Below are positions 3,795 to 11,285 of a DNA stretch of 11,285 nt, one piece after another. Source of the stretch: Defluviitaleaceae bacterium (GTDB taxonomy: Bacteria > Bacillota_A > Clostridia > Lachnospirales > WQUN01); assembly GCA_009779525.1 (NCBI GenBank), contig WREB01000015.1, positions 1-11,285 on the forward strand, written 5' to 3'. The notes below the pieces were generated by a model, which did not search any database, was not told the DNA's origin, and saw only the letters and a program-made list of their open reading frames with translations. Each line of letters starts with the position of its first letter. Position 1 is the first letter of the stretch. Made by a program: the position numbers and the translations under genes.

Positions 3795-3828
3795 ATTATG
3801 ATGGCGGCAAACCGAAAGGATGTGCGAT

Positions 3829-6249
3829 ATGGACGAACCGATTTGCGGCGCGTTACAAAAGCCGGAAAGCTACGAACCTAAAAAACCGGAGATAATAGGC
3901 ATGGCGAAGGAATCCGCGAAAAATATACGCGGGCTTTTTCCTCCGGACGAATTTTTAATAAAGCCTAAACATAAGATCGCCGGGTTTAGCGGCGACGGCT
4001 GGCCGTTTAGCAACGTCGAGCCGGCCGTGTACGGCGCCCTCGGCCTGCTTTACGGAAGGACGGCCTTGCGCGGCGCGGACGGCGCGCTTGTAAACGGGGA
4101 CATGGAGTATTCGATCCAAAACGTGTTAACCGGGCACGCGTTCGGCTTGTTCTACTGCCTTCCCGACGACGGCGCAAGCCTCGCGGCGTACGGCCTGTCT
4201 TGCTGTTTGATCGGAACCGAAGGGTTATGCACCGGCGAAATTATTAATAAGATAACCGAATCCGTCGCGCAAGGCTGCGCGGTCCATATAGACGAAGGCT
4301 GCGGCAAATACGATTATCTGGTCTGGGGCTACCGGCCCGGTCGTTCTAATTGCGAACTCCGTCCGAATTTAGAACTGCTCGGCCATGCAACCGGTGAGGG
4401 CGGGAACGTCCTGCTCGGCCACACCTTCGAGCACGGAAACGATACGCTCAACTGCTCGTGTGATTTCGAAAACCCAAGCGAAATCACGCGGCCAAGTGAA
4501 ATCTTCGCCGACTCGCGGTTGTTTAGGCCAAACGGCGAACGGCCCGGCGGCGTTTTCATAATAAGCCCCGACGGTCCGCGCTTAAACCGCGAGTTTCTTT
4601 ATCAAAAGGCGCTGGCCGAAGGTTTTCGTATGATGACGCAAACCGCGCCGCCAGTATGCATGGATATGGAGCGGGTGCATTTCGGCTACGGCCAGGCGGT
4701 CTACGACGAATGGGAGAGGCAGATCGAGCGGGCGCAGGCGGAAAATTACGAAAACTATTTTTACGTGTCGCCGATCTTTCCGCACTTCATCGCACTGTAC
4801 GAAAACCGGCTGCATCTGCACAAGTTTTTGAAGATGCTAGCGGAAAGAACCCGCGATAAAAATTTGGCCGAAGCCGCCGAAACGTGCGGGTTGTTAAGGG
4901 AAACGGCGCAAGGAGCCGCCGTCGCGACGATGGAAGGCGACTACAACCCGTTAAGGAGCGCCGCGAACTACGAAAAGCGCGCGTTTTTGCTTGAATCCTT
5001 GCAAAAATGCCGCGGGCTGGAGCTTAAAACGGCGGAGCAAATCGGCGAATACCTGCGCTGTGCCGAGGGTTATTCGCCTAAAAAGCCGGAAATAGTGGCG
5101 CTGGCTAAAAACGCCCAAAACAAATTCGACTACCCCGAATCGTTCGTCCTGCCTTCCGGCTGCGCCGAAATACCGGAAGGGGTCAGGCACGCGGGGCCCG
5201 CGTACGTCGGCTTCGCGAACGAGTTCGCGTATTTCATGGATTATACGAACCAGGGCTACGGCTTCGTTTATCACGGGGATTGGCGCAAATCGAAGGACTA
5301 CGCGTTGTTTGACGCGCTCACCGGGTACGCGGCGCGGCCCGCCGCGCACATAAAGCCCACTGATGCGGAGCTTTTAACGGCGTACGGGGCCGCCGGGTTT
5401 TATCCCGAAATTTTTTCCGCGGACCCCGATTGTGAAAATTACCTGTGCGAGGCCGATATGGCCGACGCCATCAAGTACGCGCTCTGCGCGCTGAAGCAGC
5501 CGGCGATACTTCCGCAAGCCGAGCTGTTTTGCGGCTCGATCGTTGTCGGGTATAAAAATTACGGCAGGACGCTCATTTTTTATTCGCTGTATCCGTACTT
5601 CATGCGCATGGAAGACAATACGGAGCCGCGCGTCGAGGAAGTTTCCGGCTGGTACCATGGCAAGGCAAAACTCATGATCGTGGGCGAAAGGGCGAACAGC
5701 GTTTCGGAGCTTGATATCAGCAAAGCGGCGCTTCGCAAATTACACGAAAGTTTTAGCTACGGATTGCATGGCGGCGGTAAGCGCCACTACGACGAATGGA
5801 TTAATTTCCTTAGGTTAAGCAAAAACGGGATGATCGGCGAAGTGTTGAAGAAACGCTTTATTCCTGGGGGAAGCGTCGGGCGCTTAACCGAAGCCGAGGC
5901 GAACGAACGCGATATATGGGACGTCATTTGCATGGCGCAGGACACGGTTTGGTGCGAGATCGCCGAGGCCAGGTTTTATATCGCGCGGCTCATGTACCAA
6001 ATAAAAGAGCTGTTCCCCGATTGCGCCGAAGATTTGCAAACGATCGGCGACCATTTTTGCCATGCGAGCGATATCATGGGCAACGAGCGGACGGGCTACG
6101 GCAGCGAAATCGGCGACCCGTGCGACCGCGAAATCTTTTCCAAAAATGATGTTCGCGAAAGGATGGCCGGACGCGTCGCGGATCTAATGGCCGCCGACGA
6201 AAAGGGGCTCGGCTTGATCGAGGGGCTGCTTAAAAGGATGAATCTGTGA
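3829..6249 (+). CDS. Internally duplicated BtrH/C39-peptidase-like protein
   Basis: The protein has 806 residues and no signal peptide or membrane segment. It is made of two related halves. YEPKKPEIIGMAK (from residue 15) recurs as YSPKKPEIVALAK (from residue 415). LTGHAFG...AAYG is matched by LTGYAAR...TAYG, and YDEWERQI by YDEWINFL. This order, a Gly/aromatic-rich papain-like core followed by a YDEW helical region, recalls proteins with a BtrH N-terminal (C39-like) domain. The usual N-terminal catalytic Cys is not apparent at the equivalent place in either half, so hydrolase activity is doubtful. Start 3829 is chosen over ATG 3820 because AAAGGA (3815-3820) overlaps the earlier ATG and sits 8 bases before the later one. 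It lies 56 bases after the regulator gene. The family call is tentative; the duplication is direct observation. Confidence 0.7.
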   Translation: MDEPICGALQKPESYEPKKPEIIGMAKESAKNIRGLFPPDEFLIKPKHKIAGFSGDGWPFSNVEPAVYGALGLLYGRTALRGADGALVNGDMEYSIQNVLTGHAFGLFYCLPDDGASLAAYGLSCCLIGTEGLCTGEIINKITESVAQGCAVHIDEGCGKYDYLVWGYRPGRSNCELRPNLELLGHATGEGGNVLLGHTFEHGNDTLNCSCDFENPSEITRPSEIFADSRLFRPNGERPGGVFIISPDGPRLNREFLYQKALAEGFRMMTQTAPPVCMDMERVHFGYGQAVYDEWERQIERAQAENYENYFYVSPIFPHFIALYENRLHLHKFLKMLAERTRDKNLAEAAETCGLLRETAQGAAVATMEGDYNPLRSAANYEKRAFLLESLQKCRGLELKTAEQIGEYLRCAEGYSPKKPEIVALAKNAQNKFDYPESFVLPSGCAEIPEGVRHAGPAYVGFANEFAYFMDYTNQGYGFVYHGDWRKSKDYALFDALTGYAARPAAHIKPTDAELLTAYGAAGFYPEIFSADPDCENYLCEADMADAIKYALCALKQPAILPQAELFCGSIVVGYKNYGRTLIFYSLYPYFMRMEDNTEPRVEEVSGWYHGKAKLMIVGERANSVSELDISKAALRKLHESFSYGLHGGGKRHYDEWINFLRLSKNGMIGEVLKKRFIPGGSVGRLTEAEANERDIWDVICMAQDTVWCEIAEARFYIARLMYQIKELFPDCAEDLQTIGDHFCHASDIMGNERTGYGSEIGDPCDREIFSKNDVRERMAGRVADLMAADEKGLGLIEGLLKRMNL

Positions 6250-9415: not shown

Positions 9416-9437
9416 GTATATGTCGAAGGAGGCTTCA

Positions 9438-9959
9438 ATGCAAAAAAGCGTTGCGATACTTATGGGCAGCGATTCGGACTGGCAGCTGTTGCAAAAGGCG
9501 GCGGATTTGCTCGCCGAGTTCGGAGTCGGGTTTGACGCGCGCGTGATGAGCGCGCACAGGACCCCCGAAGCGGTCAGGGAATACGTGAGCGTGACTGCCG
9601 AAAAACTCGGCGTCAAGGTGTTCATCGGGGCGGCCGGCCTTGCCGCGCACCTTCCCGGAGTGATCGCCTCGCTCACGACGCGGCCCGTGATCGGAATCCC
9701 AGTCAAGTCCGGCGCGCTAAGCGGCTTCGACGCGCTGCTTTCGATCGCGCAGATGCCTCCCGGCGTCGCGGTCGCCTCCGTCGGAATCGACGGGGCGGTA
9801 AACGCCGCGCTTTTCGCTATTCAAATACTCGCCTCTTCTTCCGAAGAGCTTACTAAAAAACTATCGGAGTACCGTAAAAAAATGGTCGAGGGAATCACTA
9901 ATAAAGACGAGGCGCTCCAATTAAGCCTTGCGGCGGACCGGGGCGTTAAAGTTGGCTGA
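9438..9959 (+). CDS. purE: N5-carboxyaminoimidazole ribonucleotide mutase
   Basis: This 173-residue protein, the usual length for class I PurE, carries all the hallmarks: MGSDSDW (9-15) for the ribonucleotide phosphate, SAHRTPE with the catalytic His40, GLAAHLPGV, and the segment LLSIAQMPPGVAVASV followed by GAVNAALFAIQIL. It converts N5-CAIR to CAIR in cytoplasmic de novo purine synthesis and normally works with PurK, whose gene is not in this window. ATG 9438 is chosen over an in-frame ATG at 9420 because AGGAGG lies 5 bases upstream of it and inside the longer version. It is the first gene of a purine operon; its stop overlaps the purF start by 8 bases. Confidence 0.96.
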   Translation: MQKSVAILMGSDSDWQLLQKAADLLAEFGVGFDARVMSAHRTPEAVREYVSVTAEKLGVKVFIGAAGLAAHLPGVIASLTTRPVIGIPVKSGALSGFDALLSIAQMPPGVAVASVGIDGAVNAALFAIQILASSSEELTKKLSEYRKKMVEGITNKDEALQLSLAADRGVKVG

Positions 9960-11285
9960 CAACCGCGAGGCAAGCGGCATCGTAGCGGTCGCTGCCGATA
10001 AAAAAAACGGGGGCGGCCTGATATACAAGCTTTACACGGGCTTGATGAGCATACAGCACCGCGGCCAGGAAAGCGCGGGCATCGCCGTCGCCAAGGACGG
10101 CTCCATCCAATGCTACAGGAACAAGGGCCTCGTTTCCGAGGTTTTCGACGGGCAGATCCTTTCGCTTCTTTCGGGCGAGATGTACCTCGGGCACGTCAAG
10201 AACGACGGCGAGCCCGAAAAATACGGCGCAAGCTCCCAGCCGGCGGTGATAAACTACAAGCACGGCTTCCTCGCGACGGCGTTCAGCGGCGCGCTCGTCA
10301 ACGCCAACGCGCTTCGCGCCGAAATGGAGGACGGCGGGGCGGTCTTTACTTCGCTAAGCGATTGGGAGCTGGTCGCGACGCTTGCGGCAAAAACCGACAA
10401 CGGCGACATCGCCTTGGCGGCGCAAAAAATAGCCGGGATGCTTAGGGGCGGCTACGCGTGCGTGCTGATGACCGCGGACACGATGGTCGGAATCCGCGAC
10501 CCGTACGGCATAAGGCCGCTTTGCGTTGGGACGCTCGAGGGTAGCTACGCCTTTTCGTCCGAAAGCAACGCCTTCGACATGATGGGCGGAAAATTTGTCA
10601 GGGACGTTTTGCCCGGCGAAATCGTCGTGCTAAAAAACGGCGGGATCACATCCCTTCGGATAGAAAACCACGCGCAAATCTCGCTCTTCGCCGACAGCAG
10701 GCAGCCGATCGGCCAGGCGAGCTGCATATTCGAGTACATTTACTACGCCAACCCGGATTCGACGATAGACGGCAAGAACGTGTGCCAATGCCGCGAACGC
10801 GCCGGCTACATTTTAGCGAAGGAGAGCCCGGCGGACGCGGACATCGTCGTAGGCGTCCCGGATTCGGGAACTCCCGCGGCGCTCGGTTTTTCCAACGGAA
10901 GCGGGATTCCGTTCGCGATCGGCCTGATAAAAAACAGGTACATTGGCAGGACCTTCATCCAGCCGACGCAGACGCAGCGCGAGATGAGCGTCAGGATCAA
11001 GCTTAACCCGATACGGCCGGTGCTCGAGGGCAAACGCATCGTGCTTGTCGAAGACAGCATCGTGCGCGGGACGACGATGCGCTACCTAATATCGGCGATA
11101 CGCGATGCCGGCGCCGCGGAGGTCCACCTTCGCATATGCTCGCCGCCAGTTTTAGATAGGTGTTATTTCGGAGTCGCGCAGCCCGACCGGAACGACATGA
11201 TCGCAAACAACATGCCGACCGGCGAGGTTTGCAAGTCGCTCGGCGCCGACAGCCTTTCGTACATAAGCCTCGAGGGCGTCTTAAA
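9952..11285 (+). CDS. purF: Amidophosphoribosyltransferase homologue lacking the glutaminase Cys (partial, runs off the end)
   Basis: The 444 visible codons cover nearly all of a PurF-type protein; the C-terminus lies outside the window. The canonical enzyme makes 5-phosphoribosylamine from PRPP and glutamine. The phosphoribosyltransferase half looks intact: VVGVPDSGTPAA, GLIKNRYIGRTFIQP, and the PRPP loop VEDSIVRGTT (366-375). Cys258 and Cys404 match two [4Fe-4S] ligands of Bacillus PurF (same 146-residue spacing); the other two would lie beyond the end. The N-terminal glutaminase half keeps the fold (SIQHRGQESAGIA, GLVSEVF, Asp137) but reads ASGIVAV where ECGVFGI is expected. Ser8 therefore replaces the nucleophilic Cys, Lys83 the glutamine-binding Arg73, and Ser112 the oxyanion Asn101 (E. 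coli numbering). The start is TTG 9952, with GGGG 8 bases upstream. It may use free ammonia or a partner subunit. Confidence 0.88.
   Translation, partial: MADNREASGIVAVAADKKNGGGLIYKLYTGLMSIQHRGQESAGIAVAKDGSIQCYRNKGLVSEVFDGQILSLLSGEMYLGHVKNDGEPEKYGASSQPAVINYKHGFLATAFSGALVNANALRAEMEDGGAVFTSLSDWELVATLAAKTDNGDIALAAQKIAGMLRGGYACVLMTADTMVGIRDPYGIRPLCVGTLEGSYAFSSESNAFDMMGGKFVRDVLPGEIVVLKNGGITSLRIENHAQISLFADSRQPIGQASCIFEYIYYANPDSTIDGKNVCQCRERAGYILAKESPADADIVVGVPDSGTPAALGFSNGSGIPFAIGLIKNRYIGRTFIQPTQTQREMSVRIKLNPIRPVLEGKRIVLVEDSIVRGTTMRYLISAIRDAGAAEVHLRICSPPVLDRCYFGVAQPDRNDMIANNMPTGEVCKSLGADSLSYISLEGVL

Follow-up and report, generated by a model that had tools for sequence, protein, structure and literature searches.

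A clostridial PurF homologue with a replaced glutaminase site and an intact PRPP site is probably an ammonia-dependent aminotransferase

The entry of nitrogen into nucleotides is regarded as almost universally the work of glutamine amidotransferases. In the excerpted text of PMC3261824, replacement of Cys1 of E. coli PurF by Ser or Ala is described as abolishing the use of glutamine, while ammonia still serves as a substrate, and ammonia use is proposed for the crenarchaeal homologues termed PurF′. An extract on the yeast enzyme (PPAT) likewise states that phosphoribosylamine is also made from ambient NH3 (PMC12017579). The window analysed here, an 11,285-nucleotide stretch from a Defluviitaleaceae bacterium, ends within a purF gene that has Ser at the Cys1 position. 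We consider it likely that this is a working gene, not a pseudogene, for an ammonia-dependent PRPP aminotransferase, and that the ability to recognise glutamine has decayed stepwise in the clade to which it belongs.

Despite its incomplete C-terminus, the product scored 401.6 bits against the NCBIfam equivalog model TIGR01134 (cut-off 350), and the solved structures nearest to it in sequence are those of B. subtilis PurF (1gph and 1ao0). The purE stop and the purF start share 8 bases (Table 1). At locus L001 the order, read by eye, is purE, purF, purM, purN, one other gene and purH. Elsewhere in the window, positions 3820-6249 encode an 809-aa protein with no Pfam or NCBIfam match. Residues of the window PurF are numbered from the TTG at 9952, which is assumed to be the start codon. 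The reading frame is open from an in-frame stop at 9922-9924 through the window end, and the in-frame residues between that stop and the TTG (ALRRTGALK) contain no Cys. A missed upstream start supplying the nucleophile, one of the escapes that the first-pass annotation had left for a normal enzyme, was thereby ruled out.

Table 1 Features of the purE-purF region in the window (positions of the whole stretch)
Feature	Positions	Strand	Description
purE	9420..9959	+	TIGR01162, 193.8 bits; directly 5′ of purF
purF	9952..11283	+	Open to window end; 444 codons; lacks the C-terminal part, to which the last two cluster cysteines belong
Ser8 (AGC)	9973..9975	+	Aligns with the Cys1 nucleophile column
GHVKNDG	10189..10209	+	Glutamine-binding loop; Arg73 to Lys (Lys83), Tyr74 to Asn (Asn84)
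FSGA replacing HNGN	10282..10293	+	His100 to Phe, Asn101 to Ser (Ser112), Asn103 to Ala; Gly102 kept
Asp (residue 137)	10360..10362	+	Asp127 position, kept
KNRYIGRTFIQPTQ	10930..10971	+	Flexible loop, intact
VLVEDSIVRGTT	11041..11076	+	PRPP-binding motif, intact

Site numbers and residue roles (Cys1, Arg73, Tyr74, His100, the oxyanion residue Asn101, and Asn103) are those of E. coli PurF, which we take to apply here. In the alignment the Arg26, Gly102 and Asp127 columns are unchanged, and where a PurF amidotransferase carries an N-terminal Cys and glutamine-binding residues, the window protein carries Ser8, Lys83, Asn84 and Ser112. Judged by sequence, it is a PurF homologue but no glutamine amidotransferase. 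The proposal that a PurF homologue combines a changed glutaminase site with an intact PRPP site was thus borne out by the alignment, the motifs and the TIGR01134 score. In known PurF enzymes the flexible loop shuts over PRPP and makes up the channel through which ammonia passes. A structure model of the window PurF, built with 27 aligned homologues as input, had a mean pLDDT of 81.9 and a pTM of 0.83, with pLDDT below 50 in three stretches (residues 1-5, 240-253 and 326-336). Its best structural match was 1ao0 (TM 0.83), and both domains appear folded in the model. Two cluster cysteines are visible, at residues 258 and 404.

In order to place the gene, a tree was built from 92 PurF sequences selected from 177 aligned, with P0123 and P0140 outside it. 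The window PurF groups with 48 others (SH-aLRT 99.9, bootstrap 100); the 49 clade rows differ as extracted, and some of them represent the same protein begun at another start (for example P0014 and P0015 at the G051 locus). Arg73 is replaced in all 49 rows (43 Lys, 2 Met, 2 Ser, 1 Thr, 1 Asn) and Phe100 is present in all 49, whereas Cys1 is retained in 47. Changes that are rare inside the clade are Cys1 to Ser (1/49), Tyr74 to Asn (2/49) and Asn101 to Ser (3/49). The first-pass annotation had counted three independent altered positions; the alterations are real, but their independence does not hold, as loss of Arg73 and His100 to Phe are common to the whole clade. Ser at the Cys1 position, whose conservation in a clade had been suggested for checking, is found in the window gene alone among the 49 rows. 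Two separate Cys losses are seen on the tree, in the window gene (Ser) and in P0041 (Gly).

Among the other 43 tree rows, Arg73 is present in 38 and Leu in 5. Arg73 occurs with Ile100 and Ala103 in P0119, the sister row, and with Phe100 in P0123. These two rows suggest an order of loss that probably began with His100 and Asn103, went on to Arg73 and ended, in two separate branches, with Cys1. Because Cys1 is kept in 47 of the 49 clade rows, glutamine use through Lys73 may persist there. A second PurF group, found at five loci (L047, L048, L050, L053 and L054, in G025, G030, G029, G024 and G032, respectively), keeps Cys and has Leu in place of Arg73, with Val, Asn or Ile in place of Asp127; glutamine binding may be altered in this group too. 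The genomes of these five PurFs have a full-length PyrG (four genomes) or a fragment of it (one), so loss of Arg73 does not by itself imply the wider syndrome described below.

Loss of the nucleophile was rare among homologues. Two homology searches, from which the best 120 of 7999 and the best 120 of 8000 scored sequences were taken, gave 174 distinct PurFs including that of the window, and Cys1 was present in 171 of these. Ser in the window gene and Gly in P0041 and P0140 were the exceptions. P0041 is the PurF of genome G040, identical letter for letter, and has Asn at position 74. P0140 lies on a single 1862-base contig and is not of the clade type, having Asp in place of Asn101 with Arg73 and His100 kept.

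Branch lengths of the two halves were compared on the fixed tree. The ratio of the glutaminase (GATase) half to the PRPP transferase (PRTase) half was 1.62 in the clade and 1.20 elsewhere, a difference reached by 1 of 5000 branch shuffles, with shuffling ignoring the dependence between branches. Binned by length, the clade and other ratios were 1.72 and 0.99 for branches under 0.15, 1.43 and 1.37 (hardly different) for branches of 0.15-0.3, and 1.64 and 1.11 for branches of 0.3-0.6. The clade stem reverses the trend, with a ratio of 0.55. The result fits relaxed constraint on the glutaminase half of the clade, with little effect in the middle bin.

Five genomes with a clade PurF were found (G001, G040, G002, G051 and G219), all of them relatives of the window organism and none its own genome. 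The nearest relative is G001, whose PurF is 68% identical to that of the window. Of 300 genomes drawn from the family of G002, 186 gave a PurF match and loci were taken from 30 of these, so further clade members are possible. Each of the five genomes gave a single purF match, as judged by the TIGR01134 cut-off (G001, G002), by protein search (G040) or at E ≤ 1e-80 (G051, G219); a second, weak TIGR01134 match in G001 is an AsnB-like gene. In the comparison genome G003 a divergent PurF-like gene (L016, contig C4:1786-2817; 179.7 bits, under the cut-off) adjoins a normal purF.

Other glutaminases were then counted in the same genomes, which are not known to be complete, so each absence is weak alone and weaker than it would be in closed genomes. 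PyrG was found in none of the five clade-PurF genomes, compared with 4/4 comparison genomes (G003 partly) and 14/14 controls. In the family of G001, 32 of 38 genomes gave a PyrG match (31 above the cut-off), those without being G001, G040 and four others. The contrast between 0/5 and 34/38 others (36 family members, G238 and G003) gave a Fisher p of 1.3e-4, and that within the family of G001 alone (0/2 vs 32/36) a p of 0.02, neither value allowing for relatedness or completeness. Full-length GlmS was likewise found in none of the five, compared with three of four comparison genomes, G003 having part only. GlmS-like proteins of about 350-370 aa that consist of SIS domains only were present in G002, G040 and G051; the G002 match has two internal stops, and the G040 protein matched GlmS and the deaminase GlmD weakly, always below the cut-off. 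From their sequences, these proteins may or may not form glucosamine-6-phosphate from ammonia.

In G002, G051 and G219 the guaA reading frames are of about 330 residues and align with the 512-position model solely from position 195 or 198 to position 512, a GuaA that, by this match, is without its glutaminase domain. A clear GuaA was not found in G001 and G040, which gave matches of 20-24 bits only; the comparison genome G013 is likewise without a clear GuaA (25.8 bits), and full GuaA is present in G238, G003 and G023. Class I amidotransferases (PF00117) numbered one in G001 (HisH, with its Cys kept), zero in G002 and G040, and two each in G051 and G219, compared with 3 to 7 in seven comparison genomes, unsorted by function. 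The matches of G051 and G219, read by eye as PuuD-like hydrolases, were not counted as biosynthetic amidotransferases, which leaves HisH of G001 as the sole biosynthetic class I glutaminase seen besides the domain of PurL itself. They form tandem pairs (L155:3411-5984 and L156:5413-7817) with hydrophobic N-terminal stretches; within each pair, one protein bears a zinc-ribbon-like N terminus and has Asn in the place of its partner's glutaminase Cys (all by eye).

The glutaminase site of PurL is intact in G001. In G040, G002, G051 and G219, the Cys of the GICNGFQ motif is Gly (read from the alignment) and the HGE motif likewise no longer has its His at the aligned place, so that G040 has lost the Cys from both PurF and PurL. 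In the best 120 of 3990 homologues of the G040 PurL domain, many of them from Clostridium perfringens, this Cys was present in 118; the two Gly exceptions were P0192, whose domain is otherwise fairly typical, and P0175, which has the same sequence as G040 across the region searched. The AsnB-like protein of G001 matched the asparagine synthase model from position 61 only, and its N-terminal stretch has no Cys. Glutamine synthetase was found in four of the five genomes and not in G040, so most of them still make glutamine. Some glutaminases may also be left in the window organism, since G001 has Cys in both PurF and HisH and its PurL is intact.

Of the three explanations offered by the first-pass annotation, an ammonia-dependent enzyme fits the sequences best. 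That part of the decay runs through the whole clade, and is accompanied by the absence of other glutaminases, could not be seen from the window alone. A paralogue beside a normal PurF was also offered, and the window gene could accordingly be a decaying or regulatory, non-catalytic copy in a genome that has a normal purF at another site. There are models for such an arrangement in the Crenarchaea, where PurF′ without Cys stands beside PurF, and in Methanocorpusculum labreanum, where a Ser variant stands beside a normal one (as far as described in the extract of PMC3261824), but the single purF match in 5/5 related genomes, the purE-purF overlap and the fully kept PRPP motifs speak against an extra copy, which we consider unlikely as far as these relatives can show. 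The third option was ammonia from a separate glutaminase, which would dock with the window PurF. Separate subunits of this kind exist, PurQ for small PurL being an example (PMC3261824, in extract), and HisH is present in G001. However, class I amidotransferases are nearly absent from the relatives, with nothing in G002 and G040 and only PuuD-like matches in G051 and G219, and Pfam identified no glutaminase gene beside the window purF (4 of the 10 scanned proteins having no Pfam match); we hold a docking partner to be decidedly improbable.

In some Ntn hydrolases Ser serves as the nucleophile, so Ser8 might act in this manner as an N-terminal nucleophile with glutamine still used. This is a very remote prospect, since Arg73, Tyr74 and Asn101 are changed as well, the G040 relative has Gly at the same place, and the Cys1 to Ser form of E. 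coli PurF is described as having no detectable glutamine activity (PMC3261824, in extract). An error of sequencing or assembly in the Cys codon would need only one base (AGC for TGC) on a single contig of unknown depth, but the same protein also departs from Tyr74 and Asn101, and in G040 the Cys1 and 74 positions read Gly and Asn; we give this explanation almost no weight. Ammonia-dependent synthesis accounts most simply for a retained PRPP half, the overlap of purE with purF and a lone purF in every relative examined.

In an ammonia-dependent window PurF, the N-terminal Ntn domain would retain its fold and have lost glutamine hydrolysis, and the C-terminal domain would form phosphoribosylamine from PRPP and free NH3 entering from solution. 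Recognition of glutamine would have decayed stepwise across the clade, with ammonia as the presumed donor, much as vertebrate CPS1 went over from glutamine to ammonia. Genomes of the same clade appear to have lost or inactivated PyrG, GlmS, PurL, GuaA and in one case AsnB functions, and the window's own genome may share such losses. More tentatively, as a serious possibility that stops short of a belief, we suggest that a Clostridia lineage, at least one member of which comes from a termite gut, has replaced glutamine by free ammonia in making nucleotides, amino sugars and asparagine, through serial loss or inactivation of glutaminase sites in PurF, PurL, GuaA, PyrG, GlmS and AsnB, with the synthase halves of the purine enzymes kept and the window PurF at a late stage.

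A plausible driver would be an ammonia-rich habitat, for example the hindgut of termites that feed on soil. In one such termite, Cubitermes, ammonia of up to 130 mM is reported from the posterior hindgut (extract of PMC7886697, citing Ji and Brune). G002 is isolate Lab288P3bin200, and Lab288 is listed as Labiotermes labralis, with a soil diet (PMC7024585, in extract). We infer the termite link of the clade from this, the host of G002 being different from the termite whose ammonia was measured. If the proposal is true, a lineage at successive stages of losing its glutaminase halves would show the order of decay and what keeps an inactive domain, and an enzyme change would be tied to a measurable habitat variable, ammonia. 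Insensitivity to glutamine-analogue inhibitors would also be expected.

Judged from titles and the starts of abstracts, no precedent for genome-wide glutaminase loss was found in the literature, nor, on the same basis, any description of a bacterial purF of this kind that is present in single copy while several other glutaminases are absent. The window PurF resembles the B. subtilis (1gph, 1ao0) and E. coli (1ecf) enzymes in fold, domain order, PRPP motifs, cluster cysteines (258 and 404) and, in its gene, the purE neighbour. It differs from them in the residues at Cys1, Arg73, Tyr74, His100, Asn101 and Asn103. Crenarchaeal PurF′ and Mlab_0150 are, in the extract of PMC3261824, without Cys1 like the window PurF, with Ser in Mlab_0150; they sit beside a normal PurF, whereas relatives of the window gene have one copy and are missing other glutaminases too. 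Vertebrate CPS1, as excerpted from PMC4655335, likewise retains an inactive glutaminase domain, with Ser for Cys in the human enzyme, and uses ammonia only, although it is a class I amidotransferase that catalyses another reaction in another domain of life. In frog CPS1 the triad is kept and glutamine is described in the same extract as unusable, and the Cys-bearing members of the PurF clade may resemble it.
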